Below are positions 1-53,448 of a DNA stretch of 64,000 nucleotides, one piece after another. The translations under genes and the position numbers were made by a program. Under the pieces are notes generated by a model. The model did no database searches, was not told where the DNA came from, and saw only the letters and a program-made list of their open reading frames with translations. This DNA comes from an uncultured bacterium (GTDB lineage Bacteria; Verrucomicrobiota; Kiritimatiellia; CAIKKV01; CAITUY01), in contig CAITUY010000145.1 of the NCBI GenBank assembly GCA_903895695.1, forward strand, positions 1 to 64,000, given 5' to 3'. Numbering within the stretch: position 1 is the first letter of the stretch; the number at the start of each line of letters is the position of its first letter.

Positions 1-14
1 CCGTAGCGCGCGAC
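1..14. repeat. Truncated end of a REP/BIME-like hairpin unit
   Basis: These bases match the 3' half of the second hairpin of the REP-like units found at 41.8, 43.9, 50.1 and 51.9 kb (CCGTAGCGCGCGAC). The rest of the unit would lie to the left of the window, so this is only a partial match. Confidence 0.5.
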
Positions 15-27
15 CGATAGGCTGCGG

Positions 28-13096: not shown

Positions 13097-13132
13097 CCGG
13101 GCCGGGGGCATCTGCGAACCTTGGCACCCGAA

Positions 13133-13206
13133 CTGTAGCCGCGCACGTTGGGCGCGGAGAGACTGGCGCGTAAGCGGGACAACGCGGTCAACGCCCGCGT
13201 CTACAG
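13133..13206 (+). repeat. 74-bp palindromic-ended repeat, copy 1
   Basis: The unit begins CTGTAGCCGCGCACGTTG and ends in an imperfect inverted copy closing with CTACAG, so it has terminal inverted repeats of about 24 bases. A second copy lies in opposite orientation at 37901-37974, differing at 5 of 74 positions by my comparison. An open frame runs through this copy into the next gene, but the true start is probably at 13223 beyond it. Confidence 0.85.
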
Positions 13207-13222
13207 AAAGAGGCTAGCGAAT

Positions 13223-23243: not shown

Positions 23244-23375
23244 GAAGGGCGGAGGGCGTGGAGCCAAGAGCAGAGGGCAAAGAGCCAAGAGCAGAGGGCA
23301 AAGAGCCAAGAGCAGAGGGCGAAGAGCGATGAGCGGAGGGCGAAGAGCCAAGGGCGAAGAGCGGAGGGCGGAGGG
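23244..23375 (+). repeat. Purine-rich 21-bp tandem array (left arm)
   Basis: Three adjacent 21-base units GAGCCAAGAGCAGAGGGCAAA start at 23261, 23282 and 23303 with one change, followed by a degenerate fourth unit at 23324 and partial units to 23375. The unit length keeps reading frame. The array ends exactly at the stop codon of the four-helix-bundle gene. A related array of opposite orientation lies on the other side of that gene. Confidence 0.9.
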
Positions 23376-23741
23376 TCATGTTGGCCTCAGGGTGCGGGAG
23401 AAACTGGTCAGCATCCGGCTCAGTTGATCGCAGTCGTCGAGCAGCGTGTCAACCTGCCCGGCATCCCACAGTCCCATGGCCTCGAATACAAGTAGCATGG
23501 ATGCGTTTTCGAACAGTGAGCGCCGGGCAATGTTGAGAAATTGCTGAAATTCCTTCTTGTGCATACTGCCGGAACCCTCCGCAATGTTGTTCGGCACCGA
23601 CAACGCAGCCGCTCTCAACTGCTCTGCATACCGGTAGAGTCTCTTGGCCTCCAATTGCTCTGCCAGACGGTGCAGGGCCACCGCCATCTGCCTCGCCTTT
23701 CGCCAGACATCAAGATCCTCAAACCGAAAATGCGCCCTCAT
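23376..23741 (-). CDS. Four-helix-bundle protein (S23/IVS-encoded, Avd-like)
   Basis: 121 residues with the family pattern: FEDLDVWRKARQMAVALH at the start, a central SVPNNIAEGSG hinge, KKEFQQFLNIARRSLFE, and LLDDCDQLSRMLTSF in the last helix. Homologs are encoded in intervening sequences of 23S rRNA genes and as solitary genes; the Avd subunit of diversity-generating retroelements has the same fold. ATG 23741 follows AGAGGGG. The gene interrupts a sugar operon and is bracketed by inverted purine-rich arrays at 23244-23375 and 23742-23790. No reverse transcriptase or 23S rRNA is present. Role unknown. Confidence 0.85.
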   Translation of the reverse strand: MRAHFRFEDLDVWRKARQMAVALHRLAEQLEAKRLYRYAEQLRAAALSVPNNIAEGSGSMHKKEFQQFLNIARRSLFENASMLLVFEAMGLWDAGQVDTLLDDCDQLSRMLTSFSRTLRPT

Positions 23742-25502: not shown

Positions 25503-26131
25503 ACAGATTCCTCCGCCTGCAGGACGAAACGCTCCAGTTCCTGCCACGACGAGAACCGCTCGCCGACGCCGTGCTGCAGCCGATGCTCGCGGGCGGGGTC
25601 GAACAGCAGTTTCGTAACCCCTGCCGGGAAGGCCGGTTCGGCCAGGAACTCCGGCAGGTCGTCGATGAAATGCGTGCACGCGGTTTCGGCGATGCGCCGC
25701 AGCTTCTCGGCTTTGGTCAGCTCGAAGCGCACGTGCTCACGCGGCAACCCGACCCGTGCCGGATCGAAGAACCCTTCCTGCTCCAGCCAGCCATAGGCCG
25801 CCGCATGCAGGTCGTAAGCGGGGCCCAGGTAGGGCACGCGGGTCTTGTGGCTGATGATATGAACATCGATGCCGCGGCGCAGCCAGTGGGCCAGACAGTC
25901 GCAGACTCCCTCAAACGCCGCGGCATCCGCCATGCGCGCGCCATAGACGTAGCCCTGCAATTCGGTCCAGGCGTCCTCGCGGCCGATCGCCCGCAGGTGG
26001 TCGCGTACGGCCTGTTTGTGGACGGGGAGCGTGTCGGGGATCAGGCCCTTCTCGACGGCAACGCGGTGGAAGACACGATCGTAGCTGACAATGGTGTTGT
26101 CGAAATCAACGCCGATCAACATGAGCCTCAC
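25499..26131 (-). CDS. HAD-superfamily phosphatase
   Basis: 210 residues. Motif I is GVDFDNTIVSYD (nucleophile Asp in DFDNT), motif II is probably IISHKT, and the motif IV acidic pair is in FIDDLPEF. The start is GTG 26131 (GGAG 4 bases before) or ATG 26122. Overlaps: 26 bp with the transketolase C gene and 4 bp with the kinase-like gene. A phosphatase between a split transketolase and a kinase suggests a sugar-phosphate intermediate, comparable to GmhB in heptose pathways, but it is not a clear GmhB. Confidence 0.75.
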   Translation of the reverse strand: MRLMLIGVDFDNTIVSYDRVFHRVAVEKGLIPDTLPVHKQAVRDHLRAIGREDAWTELQGYVYGARMADAAAFEGVCDCLAHWLRRGIDVHIISHKTRVPYLGPAYDLHAAAYGWLEQEGFFDPARVGLPREHVRFELTKAEKLRRIAETACTHFIDDLPEFLAEPAFPAGVTKLLFDPAREHRLQHGVGERFSSWQELERFVLQAEESV

Positions 26132-27053
26132 CCGTCTCCATCATCGCCAGCGTTTGCGCCACGATGCCCCCGGGCGTCAGCCCAAAATACGCGCGCGCAT
26201 CGTCTTGGCTTCCGGCCTCGTGCAGGAATCGATCCCCCGTCCCGATCCGGCATAGACGGCCTGCTGTCACCGGATGATCCGAGAGCCACTCGGCGACACT
26301 TCCGCCCAAGCCGCCCAGACGACTGTGCTCTTCAATCGTCACCACGATCCTGAAGGACCGGAAGGCTTCAGCGAGCAGGGCCTCGTCCAGCGGCTTGACC
26401 GTATGCAAGCTGACCACCTGGGCGGAGAGTCCTTTTTCCGTGAAGCGGTCGGCGGCCTGCATGACCACCGGCAGGATGGTGCCTGCACTGAGCAGGCATA
26501 CGTCACGCCCGGGTCTGATCACGATGCCCTTGCCAATCTCGAACGGCGGGGGGCTCGCATGCACGATCGGTTCCCCCTTCTTGCCGAGGCGGATGTAGAC
26601 CGGCCCCGGATGCTGCAGGGCCGCCCGCAGCGCCAACCGCACCTCCACGGCATCGCCCGGGCAGATGACGGTCATATTGGGCAGGACCCGCAAGAACGCG
26701 ATATCCTCGCAGGAATGGTGCGTCGTGCCGAGGCTTGCGTAGGACAGTCCGCTGCCGGTGCCGACGATGATCACCGGCACATTCTGGTAGCAGATGTCCA
26801 CCCGGATTTGTTCCAGGCAACGGGTGGTGACGAACGGGGTAATCGTATAAGTGATCGGCCGCAGCCCGCACAAGGCCATGCCGGCGGCCACACCGGTCAT
26901 ATTGGCTTCAGCCACGCCGCAGTTCAGGAAGCGGCCCGGCGCGGTTGCCTTCAGTTTGTCGAACAGCCGGTTGCCGATGTCGCCCGAGAGCAGGACCACC
27001 CGCTTGTCAGCCGCCGCGAGCGCCGTTACTTCTGAGGCAAAGGCGTTCCTCAT
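26106..27053 (-). CDS. Transketolase-like protein, C-terminal half
   Basis: 315 residues containing the pyrimidine-binding domain (about 1-165) and transketolase C domain (about 185-305). The activating Glu is in NCGVAEANMTGVAAGMAL. YASLGTTHHSCEDIA and the LPNMTVICPGD block match split transketolases and DXS-like proteins. It overlaps the N-terminal half gene by 4 bp and the HAD gene by 26 bp, so the heterodimer is co-translated. Ketol (C2) transfer between sugars is the family activity; in this operon a dedicated biosynthetic rather than pentose-phosphate role is likely. Confidence 0.85.
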   Translation of the reverse strand: MRNAFASEVTALAAADKRVVLLSGDIGNRLFDKLKATAPGRFLNCGVAEANMTGVAAGMALCGLRPITYTITPFVTTRCLEQIRVDICYQNVPVIIVGTGSGLSYASLGTTHHSCEDIAFLRVLPNMTVICPGDAVEVRLALRAALQHPGPVYIRLGKKGEPIVHASPPPFEIGKGIVIRPGRDVCLLSAGTILPVVMQAADRFTEKGLSAQVVSLHTVKPLDEALLAEAFRSFRIVVTIEEHSRLGGLGGSVAEWLSDHPVTAGRLCRIGTGDRFLHEAGSQDDARAYFGLTPGGIVAQTLAMMETGEAHVDRR

Positions 27054-27865
27054 GACAGGCCCAGCTCCTTGCGCGCCGCGGATAGTTCGTCGGCTGTGGG
27101 CACCCGGTAATGCCAGTTGTTGTCATCCTCCATGAAGGACACGCCCTTGCCCTTGACCGTATTGGCGATGATGGCGACCGGCTTTCCTGAACCATCCGGC
27201 ACTCGTTGCATCAGCTCGGCCAGAGCCTTCACATCGTGTCCATCGACTTCGGTGGCGCTCCAACCGAACGCTTGCCACTTCTCCCTGAGCGGACAGAGCG
27301 CCATCACCTCGCAACTGCGGCCGGTGGCCTGCCAGCGGTTGAAATCCACAATGGCGCACAGATTCACAACCCCCTGGGCTGGCGCCATCATGGCGGCTTC
27401 CCAAGAAGATCCCTCGTTGCACTCGCCGTCGCTCATCGTGACATAGACCCGATACGGGCGCTCTTGTATCCGACTGGCCAACGCCATGCCAAGGCCGAGG
27501 GGAAGTCCATGTCCCAGCGATCCGGTGGCTGCCTCGACGCCCGGAACGCAGTTCGGCGTCGGGTGCTCCTCAAGTCGACTGCCGTGGGAAGCGTAGGTGT
27601 CCAACAAGCTCTCGGGAAAAAATCCATGAAAGGCGAGTGCCGCATACAGAGCGGTGGCCGCATGGCCTTTGCTCAGGATGAACCGATCCCGCCCGGGGTC
27701 AGCCGGTGCGCCCGGGTCAATCCGGAGAACGGACCCGTACGCCGCCGTGAGAATGTCCACGCAGGAAAGCGCAGACCCCAGATGCGGCGTCTCGGCCCGG
27801 TGGCTCATTTCGATGACCTTGCCGCGTATCCGCCGCGCCATGCCTTCTAGGTCTTTGCCGCGCAT
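27050..27865 (-). CDS. Transketolase-like protein, N-terminal half
   Basis: About 271 aa TPP-binding half. LSKGHAATALYAAL and GSLGHGLPLGLGMALA are conserved, and the cofactor motif reads SDGECNEGSSWEA and ends in IVDFN about 25 residues on, with Ser in place of the first Gly of GDG, a variant seen in small split transketolases. ATG 27865 overlaps the preceding epimerase gene by 19 bp; ATG 27841 is the alternative. It pairs with the C-terminal half at 26106. Confidence 0.85.
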   Translation of the reverse strand: MRGKDLEGMARRIRGKVIEMSHRAETPHLGSALSCVDILTAAYGSVLRIDPGAPADPGRDRFILSKGHAATALYAALAFHGFFPESLLDTYASHGSRLEEHPTPNCVPGVEAATGSLGHGLPLGLGMALASRIQERPYRVYVTMSDGECNEGSSWEAAMMAPAQGVVNLCAIVDFNRWQATGRSCEVMALCPLREKWQAFGWSATEVDGHDVKALAELMQRVPDGSGKPVAIIANTVKGKGVSFMEDDNNWHYRVPTADELSAARKELGLS

Positions 27866-28812
27866 GCCCACCCCAGGTTCCCGATCGTCTTCATCGTCTT
27901 GATGTTGTAACAACCGTCCTCATTCTTCAGCCGGCCTTCGCGAAAGGCCGCAATGATCTCCTGGATGGCGTCGTTGACGCCGTAACGCGGCCGAAAACCC
28001 GTGGCCAGCAGTTTGTCCGAATTGAGCCGGTACGAGCGCGGGTCGTTCGACGGCGTTACAACGATCTCGGCCGGCACATATTCCGTGACCCGGCGTGCGA
28101 TATCGAGGATGGAGATGTTTTCGAAGCCGGCATTGTAGACGCCAGACATCCGTTCACGCTGTTCAAGAAGGTGCAGGTAGACACCCACCATGTCCCGTAT
28201 ATGGATGTTCGGCCGCGTCTGGTCTCCCCCGAATACCGTGATCCGCCCGTTGGCCAGCGCTTGAACGGCCAGCATGTTCACCGATAGGTCCAAGCGCATG
28301 CGCGGCGAATAGCCGCAGACCGTGGCCGGCCGGACACACTGGATCAGGATTTTGTCCCGGTAGCTTAACAGCACGCGCTCACTGACCATCTTGGTCTTGT
28401 TGTAGTCCGAGATCGGCACCAGCGGCAGATCCTCGGTAACCTGCGGCTCATCCTTCACCCCGTACACGCTTCCGGAACTGGCATAGACGAACTGCCGCAC
28501 ACCGTGGCGAATCGCGCGTTCCACGAGTTGCATGGACGCCAGGACGTTTACCTCCCAGGAAAGCTTCGCGTCCAGTTCACTGCAGGGATCGTTAGCAACA
28601 TTTGCCAGGTGAAGAACCGCCTCCACGCCGGCCATGGGAATGCGTTCGACGTCCCGGGTGTCTTGCCGGATCACCGTAAGGTTCGCGTGGGCCGGCAACC
28701 GATTGCCAAACCACATGACATCAACGACCGTCACTTTGTGCCCCTGCCCGAGGAGCGCCTCCGTGAGCATCGTCCCGATATAGCCGCAACCGCCCGTCAA
28801 AAGAATGTTCAT
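27847..28812 (-). CDS. NAD-dependent epimerase/dehydratase (extended SDR)
   Basis: About 321 aa. LLTGGCGYIGTMLTEALL is a full dinucleotide loop; SSGSVYG and YNKTK give the Ser and Tyr/Lys of the catalytic triad. VCGYSPRMRLDLSVNML and the GGDQTRPNIHIRDM block resemble UDP-glucose 4-epimerase-like and heptose epimerase-like SDRs. ATG 28812 leaves a 20-bp gap to the nucleotidyltransferase-kinase gene. The plus-strand epimerase-like gene at 57075-58007 (minus strand) is similar in motif style (SPRMRLDLLVN). Confidence 0.8.
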   Translation of the reverse strand: MNILLTGGCGYIGTMLTEALLGQGHKVTVVDVMWFGNRLPAHANLTVIRQDTRDVERIPMAGVEAVLHLANVANDPCSELDAKLSWEVNVLASMQLVERAIRHGVRQFVYASSGSVYGVKDEPQVTEDLPLVPISDYNKTKMVSERVLLSYRDKILIQCVRPATVCGYSPRMRLDLSVNMLAVQALANGRITVFGGDQTRPNIHIRDMVGVYLHLLEQRERMSGVYNAGFENISILDIARRVTEYVPAEIVVTPSNDPRSYRLNSDKLLATGFRPRYGVNDAIQEIIAAFREGRLKNEDGCYNIKTMKTIGNLGWACAAKT

Positions 28813-37814: not shown

Positions 37815-38202
37815 TGTGCAACACGCATTTCCCACCCGCTTCCCGAAAGCGCTGCCATAGTAGCACCCGGCATAGGCTGCGGACAAACACGTTTTTTCTT
37901 CTGTAGGCGCGGGCGTTGACCGCGCTGTCCCGTTTACGCGCCCGTCTCTCCGCGCCCAACGTGCGCGGCCACAGTTCGTGTGCCAAGGACGCTACCCCCG
38001 CAGAATTGCCACAGGCTATGGCGTAACACAATCTGGGAAAACGAGCGAAGAAAAGCATGGGAATATTTGGTCAATACTGTACTCTATCCACCCTTAATCC
38101 GTCTCATGGGGGGCTCATGGGCGCGGCCTCGGATGCGTCATACTGCGGGGGAGGCCGAGGGGTGCGCAATGAGGGTGTGAGCAGTACTTCGGAGGTGCAT
38201 GC
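37815..38202. promoter_or_regulatory. Divergent intergenic region with repeat
   Basis: 388 bp between two divergent operons. It contains the second 74-bp palindromic-ended repeat (37901-37974) and a T-rich stretch at 37891-37897 next to it. The remaining sequence, including the part upstream of the plus-strand gene with GGAGG at 38191, holds no recognisable gene. Promoters for both operons must be here, but I see none with confidence. Confidence 0.5.
37901..37974 (-). repeat. 74-bp palindromic-ended repeat, copy 2 (inverted)
   Basis: The reverse complement of this segment matches the unit at 13133-13206 at 69 of 74 positions by hand comparison, including both termini (CTGTNG...CTACAG). The two copies are therefore in inverted orientation about 24.8 kb apart. 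Confidence 0.85.
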
Positions 38203-41780: not shown

Positions 41781-41826
41781 CGCGCAACAGGACCGCACCT
41801 GCGCGTTTCCCGGTACTGTAACTGTC

Positions 41827-41916
41827 GCGTGCTACAGGGGTAGCACGCCCACACACAGGGGACTGGAGACGACATGTCTATTCTTGATGAGGTGGGCGCG
41901 CTGCTCCGTAGCGCGC
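41827..41916. repeat. REP/BIME-like bipartite hairpin unit A
   Basis: Hairpin 1 is GCGTGCTAC-AGGG-GTAGCACGC at 41827-41848. Hairpin 2 is GCGCGCTGC-TCC-GTAGCGCGC at 41896-41916. The two are oriented head to head with about 47 bases between, containing CATGTCT and TGATGAGGTGGGC words shared with the unit at 43841. It stands between the ColD-like gene and the transketolase pair. Confidence 0.85.
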
Positions 41917-41996
41917 GACAGGGCTGCAACTGGAGGGCCGTAATCGGACTGTCCTATTGTAAGGCCAAGATCGCTGTGGCAGAATAGCGGTTCCTC

Positions 41997-42872
41997 GTGA
42001 CCTTGAAACGGAAGGATGCCAGAGTGGTTCATCCCAATCTCTCGACCGAAAAACATCTGCTTCTGCGGAAGAAAGCGGACTGGGTGTGGACGGAGACACT
42101 CCGCATACACGCTCGTTCTCCGGAGACGCGCGTGGCCTCGTCTCTTTCACCGATTGAGATGCTCGTATGCTTGTACTATGGGGGGTTGCTCGCGTTTGAT
42201 CCCCGGAATCCCCGTTGGGAGGCCCGTGATCGCCTCATCATCAGTAAAGGCCACGGGTCGATTTGCATGTACCCAATCCTCGCCGACCTTGGGTACTTTG
42301 CGATGAGCGAGCTCGAGCGGGTCTGCAAACTTGACAGTTTCCTTGGGGGCATCCCCGATCCCGTGATTCCCGGCTACGAAACAGTCAACGGTTCGTTGGG
42401 ACATGGTCCCGGTGTTGCCTGTGGAATGGCGGTGGCCCTGAAGAGAAAGCAGTCACGAAACAAGGTGTTCGTGATGGTGGGTGACGGCGAACTGGATGAA
42501 GGCGCCGTCTGGGAGGCGATCATGTTCGCCGGGCACCATCGGCTGGATAACTTGGTCATGCTGGTTGACAGCAACGCCAAGTGCATGCTCGGGCACTCGC
42601 GTGAGATCATGAATGTCTTTCCCTTGGAACCGAAGTTCGAGGCATTCGGTTGGCTCACCATGACGGTCGACGGCCACGATATCCCGGCTGTTTACGCGGC
42701 GCTGGCGGAATGCGCAGCCAGCGGCCCGGCCCAGCCCCGGGTGCTTATCGCCAACACCGTGAAGGGCAGAGGGGTGCCGTCGCTGGAGCGCGACCCGTTG
42801 TGCCACATCCGGACCCTCGGTCAGCAGGAGATTGCCGAACTGATAGGAGGTGGCTGTGGCCCCCGCGTCTAG
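41997..42872 (+). CDS. Transketolase-like protein, N-terminal half
   Basis: 291 residues. SKGHGSICMYPIL, NGSLGHGPGVACGMAVAL and the TPP motif GDGELDEGAVWEA (162-174) ending in LVDSN about 24 residues later are all in place. The start is GTG 41997 by frame; no strong ribosome site was seen. It overlaps the C-terminal half gene by 17 bp. This third TPP pair directly follows a ColD-type dehydratase, so C2 transfer onto a 3-deoxy-4-keto sugar is a testable idea. The pair is bracketed by REP-like units at 41.8 and 43.9 kb. Confidence 0.85.
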   Translation: MTLKRKDARVVHPNLSTEKHLLLRKKADWVWTETLRIHARSPETRVASSLSPIEMLVCLYYGGLLAFDPRNPRWEARDRLIISKGHGSICMYPILADLGYFAMSELERVCKLDSFLGGIPDPVIPGYETVNGSLGHGPGVACGMAVALKRKQSRNKVFVMVGDGELDEGAVWEAIMFAGHHRLDNLVMLVDSNAKCMLGHSREIMNVFPLEPKFEAFGWLTMTVDGHDIPAVYAALAECAASGPAQPRVLIANTVKGRGVPSLERDPLCHIRTLGQQEIAELIGGGCGPRV

Positions 42873-43812
42873 CAGGATGAGAGACGTCTTCCTCGCCTCC
42901 GTGCTGGCGCGGATGAAGACTGACCGCCGATTGTTCTTTCTATCCGCCGATTTCGGATCGCCTGTGCTCGATGTCGTTGCCCGCGATTACCCGGATCGTT
43001 TCATCAACGTGGGCATTGCCGAACAGAATCTGATCAACGTCGCCACGGGCCTGGCGTTGGAGGGATTCGTCGTTGTCGCCTATGCTATTGCGCCGTTCCT
43101 TTCCATGCGGTGCTATGAACAGATACGGGTGAACCTGGGCATCCTCTCGCAGGTGCGGCCACTCAACGTCAACATGGTCGGCGTGGGGGCCGGCCTCAGC
43201 TACGACGTGTCGGGGCCTACGCATCAGGCGCTCGAGGACCTGTCCATCATGCGCACGCTTCCCAATGTGGAGGTGCTGTCGCCGGCAGATGGCGCCAGTG
43301 CCGGCGCGATTGCCGAGTATTGCCTGGAGCATAGCGGGCCCAAGTATGTCCGGTTGGATGGCAAGCCGCTGGCCTCACTTTATGAGACTGGGGCGGCGGT
43401 CAACGTCGAGATGGGCTTCCACGAATGGCGCCGCGGAACGGATGTGTGTCTTGTGGCTACGGGGTATATGGTGCACACGGCGCTGAAGGCCGCGCAGATC
43501 CTGGAGGCCGAGAACCTGAGCGTTGGGGTCGTCGACATGTTCGCGTTGAGCAAGTACAAGGCGTCCGAGCTCTCGGATGTGCTTGGGCACTACCAGACCG
43601 TGATTACGATCGAGGAGGGGTTCGTCGGCAAGGGCGGCCTCGATGCGTGCCTGAACGAAGCTCTCGGGGCGCGCGGCGGCCAGCGTGTGCATGCTCTCGG
43701 GCTGCCGAGCCGCTACAGTTTCCGCGTTGGCGATCGGGACGAAATGTTGCGCGACTCAGGCCTGGGAGAGGTGAGCATCGCGGCAAAGGCCCGTGAGTGC
43801 CTGCGACGTTGA
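42856..43812 (+). CDS. Transketolase-like protein, C-terminal half
   Basis: 318 residues with the activating Glu in NVGIAEQNLINVATGLAL, the LSYDVSGPTHQALEDLSIM block and a transketolase C domain (ITIEEGFVGKGGLDACL). The GTG start at 42856 has AGGAGG with a 5-base spacer and overlaps the N-terminal half gene by 17 bp; ATG 42877 is an alternative. Partner of the 41997 gene. The REP-like unit at 43841 follows its stop by 28 bp. Confidence 0.85.
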   Translation: MAPASSRMRDVFLASVLARMKTDRRLFFLSADFGSPVLDVVARDYPDRFINVGIAEQNLINVATGLALEGFVVVAYAIAPFLSMRCYEQIRVNLGILSQVRPLNVNMVGVGAGLSYDVSGPTHQALEDLSIMRTLPNVEVLSPADGASAGAIAEYCLEHSGPKYVRLDGKPLASLYETGAAVNVEMGFHEWRRGTDVCLVATGYMVHTALKAAQILEAENLSVGVVDMFALSKYKASELSDVLGHYQTVITIEEGFVGKGGLDACLNEALGARGGQRVHALGLPSRYSFRVGDRDEMLRDSGLGEVSIAAKARECLRR

Positions 43813-43840
43813 CGTGAGTCTGGCCAGGACTTTGCCTGTC

Positions 43841-43923
43841 GCTTGCTACGGGGTAGCACGCCCACAGAGAGAGAGCCAGCCCGCATGTCTTGAATGAGGT
43901 GGGCGCGCTACTCCGTAGCGCGC
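43841..43923. repeat. REP/BIME-like bipartite hairpin unit B
   Basis: Hairpin 1 is GCTTGCTAC-GGG-GTAGCACGC at 43841-43861, one pairing mismatch. Hairpin 2 is GCGCGCTAC-TCC-GTAGCGCGC at 43903-43923, perfect. The spacer has CATGTCTTGAATGAGGTGGG, close to the spacer of unit A on the other side of the transketolase pair. Confidence 0.85.
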
Positions 43924-43946
43924 GACAGGGTTGCGCCCGAGTTCGG

Positions 43947-48794: not shown

Positions 48795-50054
48795 ATGATC
48801 AGCATGTTCAGAACGGATCGGGCGATGGACCGCTGGGCGTGGTTTGTCATGGTCGCGGGCATAGTCGGCATGGCGGTATGGATGTTCCAAGGCGTGCTGG
48901 CACACGATGTCATCCTGTTCAGCACGGATAACAACATCGGCGGCATCGACTACGTCAAGGAGCAGCTCCCCGGGGCCTATGCCGGGCTCTGGTTGAATTT
49001 TCCTCTTTTGGGGGGTGGCGATCCGGTCGCGCTCAATTGCACAACCGCTTTGTCCTGGTTGCTGCCTTTGAACACCTATATGGACTGGATCCACGCCGTC
49101 CATCTTGGCCTGGCCTCTGTCTTCCTGGTCTGTTTTCTTCGTCTCCACCGTTTGTCCTGGCTGGCATGCGCGATGGCGTGGCTCACGGCCTATTGGGTGG
49201 GCACGAACTTCACACTTGTATATGCGGGCCACACCGGGAAGTTCGGGGTGGTCATGTTTGCGACCGCCGCCCTGTGGTGTATCCGCCAATTGGCGCTGAG
49301 CTCTTCGTGGGCCTGGTCCCTTTTGGCAGGCGCCTGCCTGGGCGGCATGCTTCTGGAACAGCAGGATGTGACTGTCTTCGTCGGCCTGTTCGTCGGCGCC
49401 TACGCGGTGTTTGCGGTCGGGCGCAGCGTGGGATGGCGGGTCAGGCCGGTCTTGATGCGCGTGGTCCCGATTCCCGCTGTCGCGCTGTTGCTGGCGGGCG
49501 GCACCATGCTTAAAGCGTACGCCGTGAACGTGGCAGGCGTCGCCGTGATGGAGGAAGACTCCGGTGCAAAGTGGGAGTTCTGTACGCAGTGGAGTGTGCC
49601 GCCGGATGAGTCGATCGAATTCGTGGCCCCCGGCTACATGGGCTGGCGATCCGGGGAGCCGGAAGGGCCTTACTGGGGTCGCACCGGTCGTTCCGCCGGC
49701 TGGGAACAGACGGGTCAGGGGTTCATGAATTTCCGGCTCGAGGGCATCTATGTCGGCGCGATCCCGGTGGCGCTGGCGCTGTTCGCCGTGGCGGCGGCCG
49801 TGTGGGGCGGGCGGTCCGATCGCCGCGCCGAGATCTTTTTTTGGGGTGGCGCAGCGGTGCTGGCTTTACTGCTCGCCTTCGGGAAGTTCTTCCCTCTGTA
49901 TGCGCTGTTGTACAAGTTGCCGGTGCTTAACAATATCCGCAACCCGAACAAATTCCTCCACGTGTTCCAGGTTGCGCTGGGCATCCTGGCGGCCTATGGG
50001 CTGGATACGGCCGTGAGATGGCGGGGAGAGACCCGGCATCCGCAGGCGCTGTAG
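48795..50054 (+). CDS. YfhO-like membrane protein, N-terminal half
   Basis: About 419 aa. The N-terminal stretch, with STDNNIGGIDYVKEQLPG, an early loop and about ten helices, and the motif FGKFFPLYALLYKLPVLNNIRNPNKFLHVFQVAL fits (quoted in part) the YfhO-type membrane glycosyltransferase-like family: the R-N-P-x-K-F-L-H block is its clearest mark. YfhO proteins normally continue into further helices and a soluble C-terminal domain; that continuation is found instead in the gene at 51991, beyond an opposite-strand radical SAM gene. ATG 48795 has AGGGGAG 7 bases upstream. Confidence 0.7.
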   Translation: MISMFRTDRAMDRWAWFVMVAGIVGMAVWMFQGVLAHDVILFSTDNNIGGIDYVKEQLPGAYAGLWLNFPLLGGGDPVALNCTTALSWLLPLNTYMDWIHAVHLGLASVFLVCFLRLHRLSWLACAMAWLTAYWVGTNFTLVYAGHTGKFGVVMFATAALWCIRQLALSSSWAWSLLAGACLGGMLLEQQDVTVFVGLFVGAYAVFAVGRSVGWRVRPVLMRVVPIPAVALLLAGGTMLKAYAVNVAGVAVMEEDSGAKWEFCTQWSVPPDESIEFVAPGYMGWRSGEPEGPYWGRTGRSAGWEQTGQGFMNFRLEGIYVGAIPVALALFAVAAAVWGGRSDRRAEIFFWGGAAVLALLLAFGKFFPLYALLYKLPVLNNIRNPNKFLHVFQVALGILAAYGLDTAVRWRGETRHPQAL

Positions 50055-50086
50055 CCGGGTTGACGTTGCCCCTGGGCTCAACAGCC

Positions 50087-50169
50087 GCGCGCCACGGGGT
50101 GGCGCGCCCACACAGAGCGGGACTCGCCGCTGTTCTTTCCCGGGGTGGGCGCGCTGCCCCGTAGCGCGC
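50087..50169. repeat. REP/BIME-like bipartite hairpin unit C
   Basis: Hairpin 1 is GCGCGCCAC-GGG-GTGGCGCGC at 50087-50107 (perfect). Hairpin 2 is GCGCGCTGC-CCC-GTAGCGCGC at 50149-50169 with one wobble. CACACAGAG follows hairpin 1, as in unit D at 51814. It starts 33 bp after the first half of the YfhO-like gene. Confidence 0.85.
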
Positions 50170-50195
50170 GACAGGGCGGACCGATGCCGCTAGCC

Positions 50196-51701
50196 TCAAG
50201 CCCCGGTCTGCACTCCCGGTATCTCGGCTTCGCCGAACTGCCTGTGCGTCCGCTGGAGTCTGTGGCGCGTCATGTCCTGAATGTGGCGCACGGTGTCGAG
50301 ACCAAACAGGCGCTGTATCTTCGCGAGATAGCGAGGGTTCTCATAGTAGGCATGGAAAGCGTAATCCCGGAAACTGAGGACTTCGCCTGCCGTCAGATGC
50401 CGCGTTGGCAACGGGAGTGAGTCGCGCGCATAGGGCGAGTATCCGGACCACGATGCCGGGAGCGCCCACCCCTGCGCTATGGCCTGGTCATGGAGCCGCG
50501 TGCCTGGATAGGCCACGGCCGCGTAGATATTCAGCCACTCGGCATTGATGTCCATGGCCATGTTGAGCGTTTGCTGCATGCTGTCGAAATCGTCTTCCGG
50601 GAGTCCGAAGATAAAGTTCGACAGGACGTACAGTCCCTCTTGGTAAGTCATGTCCACGATCTTCATCGTTGTGGACGCGTCGTAACGTTTGTCGACGTCT
50701 TTCAGGACGCGTTCGTTCGCAGACTCGAATCCGTAGGCCACCCAATGGATGCCGGCTTTCTTCATGCGGGCCAGCATCCGCGGCGTGACGGTATTGACGC
50801 GAGCATAGGCCCACATGTTGAGGTCGTACCCGCGTTCTATGATCCGGTCGCAGAGGTCGATTACCCGATCCTCGTTGAGCGCAAAGAGTTCATCGATGAT
50901 CTTGATATTCCGGATGCCATAGCGGGTGACGAGCCCGTCGAGGTCCTCGATCACTCGTTCCGGGCTCCGCAGTCGGATCCCGGGTTTGCCGAACATGGTG
51001 TTGATGCAGCAAAAGCTGCAGTTGAAAGGACACCCGAGACTTGTATAGAGCACGCCGTAGGGTTGGCGGTCCTGAATGTGGCCGAAACAATGCCAGTTGT
51101 GCGCCCGGTAGCGAGTCATGGGCAGCAAGTCCCAGGCGGGCTGCGGCAGGGCGTCGAGGTCGGCGCACACCGGCGCCCGCGGGTTTGCGCAGACGCGCCC
51201 GTTCTCGCGATACCACAGGCCGGGTATCCGGAAGCCAGGCGCCGGCGACTGGAGCGCCTCGACCAAATCCACCAGGGCTTGGAAGCCCTCCCCCTCGAAG
51301 GCGAACTCCACATGCTCCTCGTCCATCGTGCGTGCCGGGAGGGCCGAGACGTGCAGTCCGTGGATGGCTGTCTTGATTTCCGGCGCGATGTCCCTGAGAT
51401 TGCGCAGGACGTGGCCTGCGCCGATCATGTTCATGGTAGAGGCTGATGGATTGCTGCCGGAAACGGAAATCACGGCCAGCAGCGGGTTCAACGCCTTGAT
51501 CCGTGCGGCGGTCTCGGCGCCATCCCATCCCTCGACTTCCGCGTCGAGCAGTTCCACCGCATGGCCGTGCGAGCGCAGGTAACCCCCGAGCAGGGCCGCC
51601 CAAAGCGGGGGCTCGACCGCCGTAAGGGAGAACTCGCTCAAGGCTCCATATAAGCGCTTCTGGTCGCCAGGTTTAACGATTACGACCGTCGGTGAATTCA
51701 T
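50196..51701 (-). CDS. B12-binding-domain radical SAM protein
   Basis: About 501 aa. N-terminal B12-binding-like half with VELLDAEVEGWDG and LAVISVSGSNPSAS; radical SAM core with Cys224, Cys228 and Cys231 in LGCPFNCSFCC, followed by IKIIDELFALN, VAYGFESAN and FIFGLPEDDFDS. It is on the strand opposite to its neighbours, between the two parts of a YfhO-like gene, with REP-like units C and D just outside it. ATG 51701 is the family N-terminus; the longer frame runs into unit D. Substrate unknown. Confidence 0.85.
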   Translation of the reverse strand: MNSPTVVIVKPGDQKRLYGALSEFSLTAVEPPLWAALLGGYLRSHGHAVELLDAEVEGWDGAETAARIKALNPLLAVISVSGSNPSASTMNMIGAGHVLRNLRDIAPEIKTAIHGLHVSALPARTMDEEHVEFAFEGEGFQALVDLVEALQSPAPGFRIPGLWYRENGRVCANPRAPVCADLDALPQPAWDLLPMTRYRAHNWHCFGHIQDRQPYGVLYTSLGCPFNCSFCCINTMFGKPGIRLRSPERVIEDLDGLVTRYGIRNIKIIDELFALNEDRVIDLCDRIIERGYDLNMWAYARVNTVTPRMLARMKKAGIHWVAYGFESANERVLKDVDKRYDASTTMKIVDMTYQEGLYVLSNFIFGLPEDDFDSMQQTLNMAMDINAEWLNIYAAVAYPGTRLHDQAIAQGWALPASWSGYSPYARDSLPLPTRHLTAGEVLSFRDYAFHAYYENPRYLAKIQRLFGLDTVRHIQDMTRHRLQRTHRQFGEAEIPGVQTGA

Positions 51702-51813
51702 GCCGCTTGATTCTCGTGATGGACGCTTGGAAGGCAAGCCGATTTGTGACCGCGCACCGAGGGAACGACGGAGCGATGGTGGGGCCGCTGGCGGTCTGGT
51801 GGCCTTGACGGTC

Positions 51814-51882
51814 GCGCGCCACAGGGGTGGCGCGTCCACACAGAGGGTGTCCCAAGGTGGGCGCGCTACCCCCGTAGCGCGC
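51814..51882. repeat. REP/BIME-like bipartite hairpin unit D
   Basis: Hairpin 1 is GCGCGCCAC-AGGG-GTGGCGCGT at 51814-51835 (last base mispaired). Hairpin 2 is GCGCGCTAC-CCCC-GTAGCGCGC at 51861-51882 (perfect). CACACAGAGG follows hairpin 1. It shares the CCAC/GTGG form of hairpin 1 with unit C only, and lies in the divergent gap 51702-51990 between the radical SAM gene and the second YfhO-like piece. Confidence 0.85.
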
Positions 51883-51990
51883 GACGGGGCTGTGGCCGGA
51901 AGATGGCGACGGATTATCTTTCATCTTTGCATTTCTCCCCCTTTTCCTTCAGCCTACAGCGCACAGACTAAACCACGGTCGGCAACAACT

Positions 51991-53448
51991 ATGAGCAAAG
52001 ATAAGAAGAAGCCAGCGACACGAGGCGCCTCCGTCAATTCCCGCGACGAAGCCGCATCCCCGCGGCCGAGCGCAGTTTCCCCTCTGTGGGCTCGCGTGTT
52101 CGTGTGGTGCGTCCTGGGTGCTGCCGGCCTCTTGGCACTGTGGGCGCTGGTAGTGACAACCAACCAGGCGGCCGAAATACGCCGGTTCTCGGAGCAGGGC
52201 TGGGGCCAGCATGCGAGCGCGATCGTCGGCAATCAAGTGCGGGCCCTTTGGCACGCCGCTTTCATGATGGCGGTCGCAGGAGTCGCTTTGTGGTGGATTA
52301 TTGGGAAAAGAGGGTCGAGGGTTGAGGGTCGAGGGGCAGGGGTCCGAAATGGTGCGGCAGCAGCAGTCCGAAGTCCGCGGTTCGTTGTCCCTGTCCTTTT
52401 GGTGCTGATTGTGGCGTTCGACGCCGTGTGGTTTTCGCGGAATTACGTGAAGACTTTGCCCCTGTCGGGCTTCGAGGCAAACCCGGTGATTGCGATATTG
52501 AAGAAGGACACGCCGGAGCACCGCGTCGCGTTGGTATCCCAGGACGGCTTCTATAATTGGTGGCTGACCTATCTGTTTCCCTACCACGGGATCTTGACCG
52601 TCAACATCACGCAGATGCCTCGCATGCCGGCCGATTACAAGGCCTTCCTGGGCGCGATGGGACGTAACCCTCTGCGGATGTGGCAGCTCTCGGCGGTGGG
52701 ATATGTGCTGGCGCCGGCCCCGGTGTGGCGGCAGATCCAGCACGACCCGGCCTGGAGCAACGCCTTCGAACTGGTCTGCGGGTACAATGTGGCGCCGGCT
52801 GAGGCGGGTGTGACCGTGGTGCCGGTGTGGGAGCGCGCAAGCCTGGAATCAGGAGACAGAAGTCAGAAGCCAGAAATCGGAGCGTCGGCTGTTCCTCCTA
52901 AAGACGTCGGTGAGCACGTTGTCCTGCGTTTGCTTCGACCCGCCCCTCGCTTCGCTTTGATCGGCGCCGTGCGTCAGGTGGATGATGAGGAGGCATTGAA
53001 ACTGCTGGGTTCACCTGCCTACGAATTGTTTCAGGAGGTGCTCGTTCCGCCTGTAGCCGCGGGCGCCGACCCCGGGCGTGCGGCTGCTGAAGCGGCGCTG
53101 ACCAATGCCGGATTCATGGGCACCTGCACGTTGAGCCATTATCGCCCCGGCCGTATGGAGGTCGAGGTCAAGGCGACCAAGCCGGGTATCCTCCGGGTGA
53201 GCGAGAAATACGATAGGGACTGGAAGGCGACCGTGGACGGCACGCCCGAGCCCGTGCAGCGAGTCGATTTCATCATGCAGGGCGTGCTGGTGCCGGCAGG
53301 CGAACACAGGATTGTGCTGCGGTATGCACCCTCCATCTGGCCTCTCTACGTACAGGGCGTGGGGATGCTGATCGTGCTCGGCGCCGTGGGGTGGCTGGTT
53401 GGCGCGAAGATCCGCGCGCGCAAGTCGCAAACAATGATCAGCAAATAG
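51991..53448 (+). CDS. YfhO-like membrane protein, C-terminal half (with in-frame low-complexity inserts)
   Basis: About 485 aa. A charged N-terminal segment precedes membrane helices at about 30-50, 85-105 and 130-150, a large soluble domain with two strand-rich blocks, and a last helix near 455-475. LRVSEKYDRDWKATVDG and HRIVLRYAPS are the C-terminal motif set of YfhO-like proteins, so this is the continuation of the gene at 48795. Two stretches look inserted: about residues 106-131 and 286-300 (52306-52382, 52846-52890), both low-complexity and in frame. Start ATG 51991; no good ribosome site. An independent translated subunit or a split gene are both possible. Confidence 0.7.
   Translation: MSKDKKKPATRGASVNSRDEAASPRPSAVSPLWARVFVWCVLGAAGLLALWALVVTTNQAAEIRRFSEQGWGQHASAIVGNQVRALWHAAFMMAVAGVALWWIIGKRGSRVEGRGAGVRNGAAAAVRSPRFVVPVLLVLIVAFDAVWFSRNYVKTLPLSGFEANPVIAILKKDTPEHRVALVSQDGFYNWWLTYLFPYHGILTVNITQMPRMPADYKAFLGAMGRNPLRMWQLSAVGYVLAPAPVWRQIQHDPAWSNAFELVCGYNVAPAEAGVTVVPVWERASLESGDRSQKPEIGASAVPPKDVGEHVVLRLLRPAPRFALIGAVRQVDDEEALKLLGSPAYELFQEVLVPPVAAGADPGRAAAEAALTNAGFMGTCTLSHYRPGRMEVEVKATKPGILRVSEKYDRDWKATVDGTPEPVQRVDFIMQGVLVPAGEHRIVLRYAPSIWPLYVQGVGMLIVLGAVGWLVGAKIRARKSQTMISK
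52306..52382 (+). repeat. In-frame low-complexity insert 1 in the YfhO-like gene
   Basis: A purine-rich run of GGGTCGAGGGTTGAGGG-type words is followed by a segment of AGTCCGAAGTCCGCGG-type words. It lies in the loop between two membrane helices and keeps the frame. Style resembles the array flanking the four-helix-bundle gene. Confidence 0.6.
52846..52890 (+). repeat. In-frame low-complexity insert 2 in the YfhO-like gene
   Basis: The core reads AGGAGACAGAAGTCAGAAGC followed by CAGAA. It codes for a serine/glutamine-rich stretch (LESGDRSQKPE) in a soluble part of the protein. The same words appear, inverted, in the insert at 54993-55115. Confidence 0.6.

Follow-up and report, generated by a model that had tools for sequence, protein, structure and literature searches.

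The locus and its hairpin units

The window (the whole stretch of 64,000 nucleotides analysed) contains a gene cluster with nucleotide-sugar enzymes, glycosyltransferases, a DegT aminotransferase and transketolase halves, and several of its intergenic gaps hold a bipartite hairpin unit. Units C (50083–50176) and D (51811–51889) lie on either side of a minus-strand gene (50196–51698) that encodes a 500-residue protein with B12-binding (PF02310) and Radical_SAM (PF04055) domains. Outside the two units are two plus-strand genes, YfhO-N (48795–50054, 419 residues) and YfhO-C (51991–53448, 485 residues). The original prediction described just this arrangement, a radical SAM gene on the opposite strand, with a unit on each side at 50087–50169 and 51814–51882, between the N- and C-terminal halves of a YfhO-like gene; its limits for the units are correct to the base, and both the strand and the identity of the flanking halves are confirmed. 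Two further units bracket the split transketolase pair (41997–43812, plus strand; TktN, 41997–42872, and TktC, 42850–43812; assigned from Pfam and synteny): unit A (41825–41923) separates it from the DegT aminotransferase gene, and unit B (43838–43930) lies between TktC and a convergent DUF2961 gene. All four units are given here as read on the plus strand.

Each arm of a unit consists of GTGGG followed by a GC-rich hairpin with a stem of 8–9 bp, and the two arms are inverted with their tags inward, giving a tail-to-tail dimer with a spacer of roughly 15–45 nt. Hairpin-1 and hairpin-2 occupy 50087–50107 and 50149–50169 in unit C, and 51814–51835 and 51861–51882 in unit D. In single-strand folding, units A–D score far beyond their shuffled counterparts (z of −4.7 to −6.5; none of 200 shuffles was as good); a search of the window against Rfam found no known RNA family. 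The hairpin-1 sequences of A/B and C/D differ by two compensatory T-A to C-G changes, a comparison of few sequences. As these changes disrupt the long-range pairing of both arms, the two local hairpins are what is kept. The resulting CCAC/GTGG variant and a CACACAGAG tail occur only in units C and D, as had been claimed. The units also pair off by the identity of arm 5 (A–B 29/32, C–D 30/32, cross pairs 25–27/32); arm 3 shows no such A–B and C–D likeness, so the pairing is a property of arm 5 only. Today, C and D have no exact match longer than 16 nt, and exact words common to units reach at most 20 nt. Between 40.5 and 58 kb, units occupy four of the five gaps longer than 100 nt, and the orientation of their neighbouring genes is mixed (co-directional, convergent, convergent and divergent).

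Pattern and covariance-model searches of the 6.34 Mb assembly (94.6% complete) located A, B, C, D and one copy at the start of contig C147. The contig of the window, C145, itself opens with 18 bases from the 3′ end of a unit (1–18, plus strand), and joining the reversed C147 to C145 rebuilds a complete 3′ arm that matches the consensus at 29 of 32 positions, a result equalled by none of 2000 shuffles. The copy at C147:1–93 (reversed) and the start of the window are therefore most likely one fifth unit broken in the hairpin loop; with this putative join, all five units would belong to a single glycan gene cluster or border on it. The unit is absent from the 96 relatives searched, the nearest of which (G003) belongs to the same family but to another genus, from 387 other sampled genomes of the phylum (a sample that overlaps the 96), from the viral contigs searched, and from about 60 homologous radical SAM loci looked at elsewhere. 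Among the genomes sampled, the units are thus confined to this one, and they look like a low-copy REP-type intergenic family restricted to a single surface-glycan cluster. Two other repeats were observed in the window: a 90-nt inverted repeat (13119–13208 and 37899–37988, 93% complementary, with 24.7 kb between the arms) and a short tandem array with a 21-nt unit (AAGAGCAGAGGGCAAAGAGCC) at 23245–23377.

The two YfhO genes and the gap between them

YfhO-C matches the YfhO profile (PF09586) with 32.2 bits against a cut-off of 28.5, the match covering positions 757–827 of 835. YfhO-N alone has no Pfam match; it matches the N half of fused YfhO-like proteins, with about 45–54% identity to the N half of frames of 800–900 residues in the nearer relatives. 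Both parts align within such single frames, and most relatives of the class have the uninterrupted gene whose existence the original prediction had proposed to check. The window differs from these single YfhO-like proteins in having two genes. Stand-alone halves are found in 12 genomes from five families. The C half of the window is 46–60% identical to stand-alone C halves and mostly 25–42% identical to fused ones; over part of the alignment some fused ones go up to 52%, and over its full length those of two genomes nearly reach the stand-alone values. A single clade of stand-alone C halves is compatible with the data (AU p 0.35), whereas one clade of split N halves is rejected (AU p 0.012; two short N frames at contig ends, in G021 and G056, were left out of this test). 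Swapping of halves, or several splits, may therefore have taken place. Both trees make G003 the sister of the window (support 98/95 and 99/95). By these comparisons, the halves in the window are two separate genes that descend from an old split.

What lies between the halves varies from genome to genome. The B12 radical SAM gene of the window is replaced in G003 by a DUF4143/AAA_14 ATPase gene, the halves in G003 being collinear and followed, as in the window, by GT2 and nucleotidyltransferase genes. In G047 the gap is taken by a GxxExxY (PDDEXK_3) gene that has inverted ends (L064 8599–9251), in G067 by a DUF2961 gene and, over two contigs, in G058 by a DUF2961 gene followed by a decayed GxxExxY piece (L187 2039–2366, with inverted ends of about 42 nt). 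It measures only about 50 nt in G036, and in G084 a DUF2961 gene directly precedes the C half. The inverted ends of the GxxExxY gene in G047 and G058 suggest that it is a small mobile gene. Since different genomes have different genes here, we conclude that the YfhO junction takes in insertions and that the two-gene state predates the insertion of the radical SAM gene. The minimal mobile elements of Neisseria offer a parallel: there, too, the gene found at a given junction between conserved genes differs from genome to genome. The YfhO junction differs from them in that its variation is seen across families, not strains, and any common mechanism is putative.

The radical SAM gene and the transketolase pair

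By domain order and best NCBIfam scores, the product of the gene between C and D resembles the HpnJ/BchE-like B12 radical SAM enzymes; unlike these, it scores far below every equivalog cut-off and is found in a nucleotide-sugar and transketolase context. In all seven class relatives examined (G032, G036, G084, G022, G038, G086 and G094) the gene adjoins the split transketolase pair, in the order TktN–TktC–radical SAM in G032, G036 and G084 and radical SAM–TktN–TktC in G022 and G086. Many other phyla have it beside or near a transketolase pair and genes for an aminotransferase, a GHMP kinase, an epimerase and a nucleotidyltransferase. In the window it lies 6.4 kb from the pair, on the opposite strand. 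A second transketolase-like pair in the cluster, recognised by eye only, is encoded on the minus strand (26106–27913).

The closest relatives of the radical SAM protein are in G032 (64% identity) and in a Planctomycetota MAG (63%). In the tree the gene groups with that of G032 (support 97–99), within a clade that includes Planctomycetota, Thermodesulfobacteriota, Myxococcota and others. The transketolase pair of the window groups instead with those of G022 and G086 (support 97). A transketolase tree constrained to the grouping with G032 is rejected (AU p 0.0007), as is a radical SAM tree constrained to the grouping with G022 and G086 (AU p 4e-65); the two genes therefore have separate histories. 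The radical SAM gene is a newcomer at the YfhO gap, most likely one that was horizontally acquired on its own. Given the gene content of the cluster, we suggest that its enzyme is likely to help make an unusual sugar of the surface glycan.

A single inversion between units B and D, which would restore the adjacency of transketolase with radical SAM and of DUF2961 with YfhO-C, was attractive. We dropped it because the halves are already collinear in G003 with the same GT2 and nucleotidyltransferase genes downstream, and because the origin of the radical SAM gene is not that of the transketolase pair.

REP-type elements and the placement of the radical SAM gene

Elements of the REP/BIME/REPIN type in the GTAG super-family are intergenic GC-rich hairpins of 20–40 nt with a GTAG-type tetranucleotide at one end, arranged in inverted pairs with a short spacer (PMC3733652, PMC8266576). 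GTAG-tagged REPs are present in the PVC superphylum, and most GTAG-20 elements of O. terrae (Verrucomicrobia) have GTGG (PMC3733652). The units of the window share this layout, in line with the proposal that they are REPs: a GTGG tag stands at one end of a short GC-rich hairpin, the units are inverted dimers with a short spacer, and hairpin-1 is maintained by compensatory change at two pairs. They differ from REP/BIME in number and spread, with five copies in or at one cluster rather than many genome-wide, and the low count weighs against the explanation that we favour below.

The Y1 transposase genes sought elsewhere in the genome do exist (five Y1_Tnp genes, on C66, C81, C83, C105 and C143), but the unit of the YfhO cluster is absent from all five loci; unlike in RAYT-linked REPs, no Y1 transposase gene is flanked by a repeat of the A–D type. 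Two of the five have their own tagged palindromes on their flanks, with GTGGGAGG tags at C81 (C81:19500–25500; seven matches genome-wide) and GTAG tags at C143 (C143:29500–33304; three matches genome-wide), both of these palindrome families being small too. We regard these two genes and their palindromes as candidate REP/RAYT pairs of this genome. The unit is, to judge from its sequence, a REP dimer in form; its membership of a RAYT-driven family is putative.

The explanation that we consider probable is that the units form a small REP family, that the glycan cluster around them is a mosaic, and that the radical SAM gene was placed in the YfhO junction, a site prone to insertion. The YfhO-like gene would have split long ago into two separate genes, and the junction between them would accept insertions, other genomes having taken in other genes. 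The B12 radical SAM gene, whose place in relatives is beside the transketolase pair, would then have come into this lineage by horizontal transfer and ended up in the junction. Units C and D were probably already there or came with the gene, perhaps serving as recombination ends. They may have had some part in the placement.

It is in this last, inferred step only that the chief rival departs from the favoured explanation. REP-type elements may have settled independently in roomy intergenic gaps, so that the repeats have nothing to do with the inserted gene and bracket it by chance. Sixteen identical bases in a row are too few for efficient homologous recombination, and this length of the C–D match, together with the presence of units in most of the roomy gaps, makes chance bracketing a serious rival; the mixed orientation of the neighbouring genes is also as expected for intergenic insertion. 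However, the compensatory hairpin variant and the tail are peculiar to C and D, which flank the one gene for which a separate origin has been demonstrated. On balance, we hold chance bracketing to be quite possible, if somewhat short of probable. With so short a match, and with the repeat lacking in all relatives searched, recombination between the repeats, put forward earlier as a cause, is putative.

A bolder view would make the REP-type dimers the ends of exchangeable modules of the glycan cluster (A–transketolase–B and C–radical SAM–D), with bracketing units that descend from one another and a YfhO junction where genes land preferentially throughout the class; we think this unlikely. Also unlikely is that the same two segments are mobile cassettes moved by a Y1 (RAYT-type) transposase that acts on the units as ends. 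The paired likeness of A–B and C–D in arm 5 would fit such cassettes, as would the GTGG tag, the inverted arms and the occurrence of Y1 transposases in the genome. However, none of these transposases adjoins the unit, the roughly 60 homologous radical SAM loci are free of it and, to our knowledge, mobilisation of kilobase cassettes by REPs is not an established process.

The original prediction had also offered the insertion of a repeat-bounded cassette into an intact longer gene. The uninterrupted gene of most relatives and the collinear halves of the window agree with a recent event of this kind, but the split form is common to the 12 genomes and to the sister G003, which has another insert, so that the idea fails unless the G003 gene underwent a split of its own at the identical site. 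In addition, about 15 kb separates the halves in G017, where they are on opposite strands, and in G014, G009 and G022 each half is on a different contig. Because the gene was already in two parts before the radical SAM gene came in, a cassette that broke a once-intact gene in this lineage is not supported, and we consider it very unlikely. Taken as a whole, the original interpretation is partly supported.

An assembly chimera at the repeats, which two contig ends falling within a unit might bring to mind, is highly improbable, as the exact words in common (20 nt or less) are below usual final assembly k-mers and G003 has the same collinear halves. The genome encodes two integron-type integrases that clear the NCBIfam cut-off by a wide margin (C185:56395–57333 and C64:30841–31800), which led us to consider the units, palindromes between genes in one orientation, as attC sites of integron cassettes, a reading to which we give almost no credence since no unit has a GTTRRRY/RYYYAAC core-site pair and the integrases sit on other contigs. 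Near the C185 integrase we observed a 34-nt direct repeat with AAC motifs, its copies 627 nt apart, which may be a small attC array.

Under the favoured explanation, the parts of this glycan biosynthesis cluster have histories of their own: one gene split long ago, the junction between its halves has received inserts repeatedly, and an enzyme gene of different origin has come to lie away from its usual operon. If the repeats guided the placement of that gene, REP elements would gain a role in the shuffling of genes.
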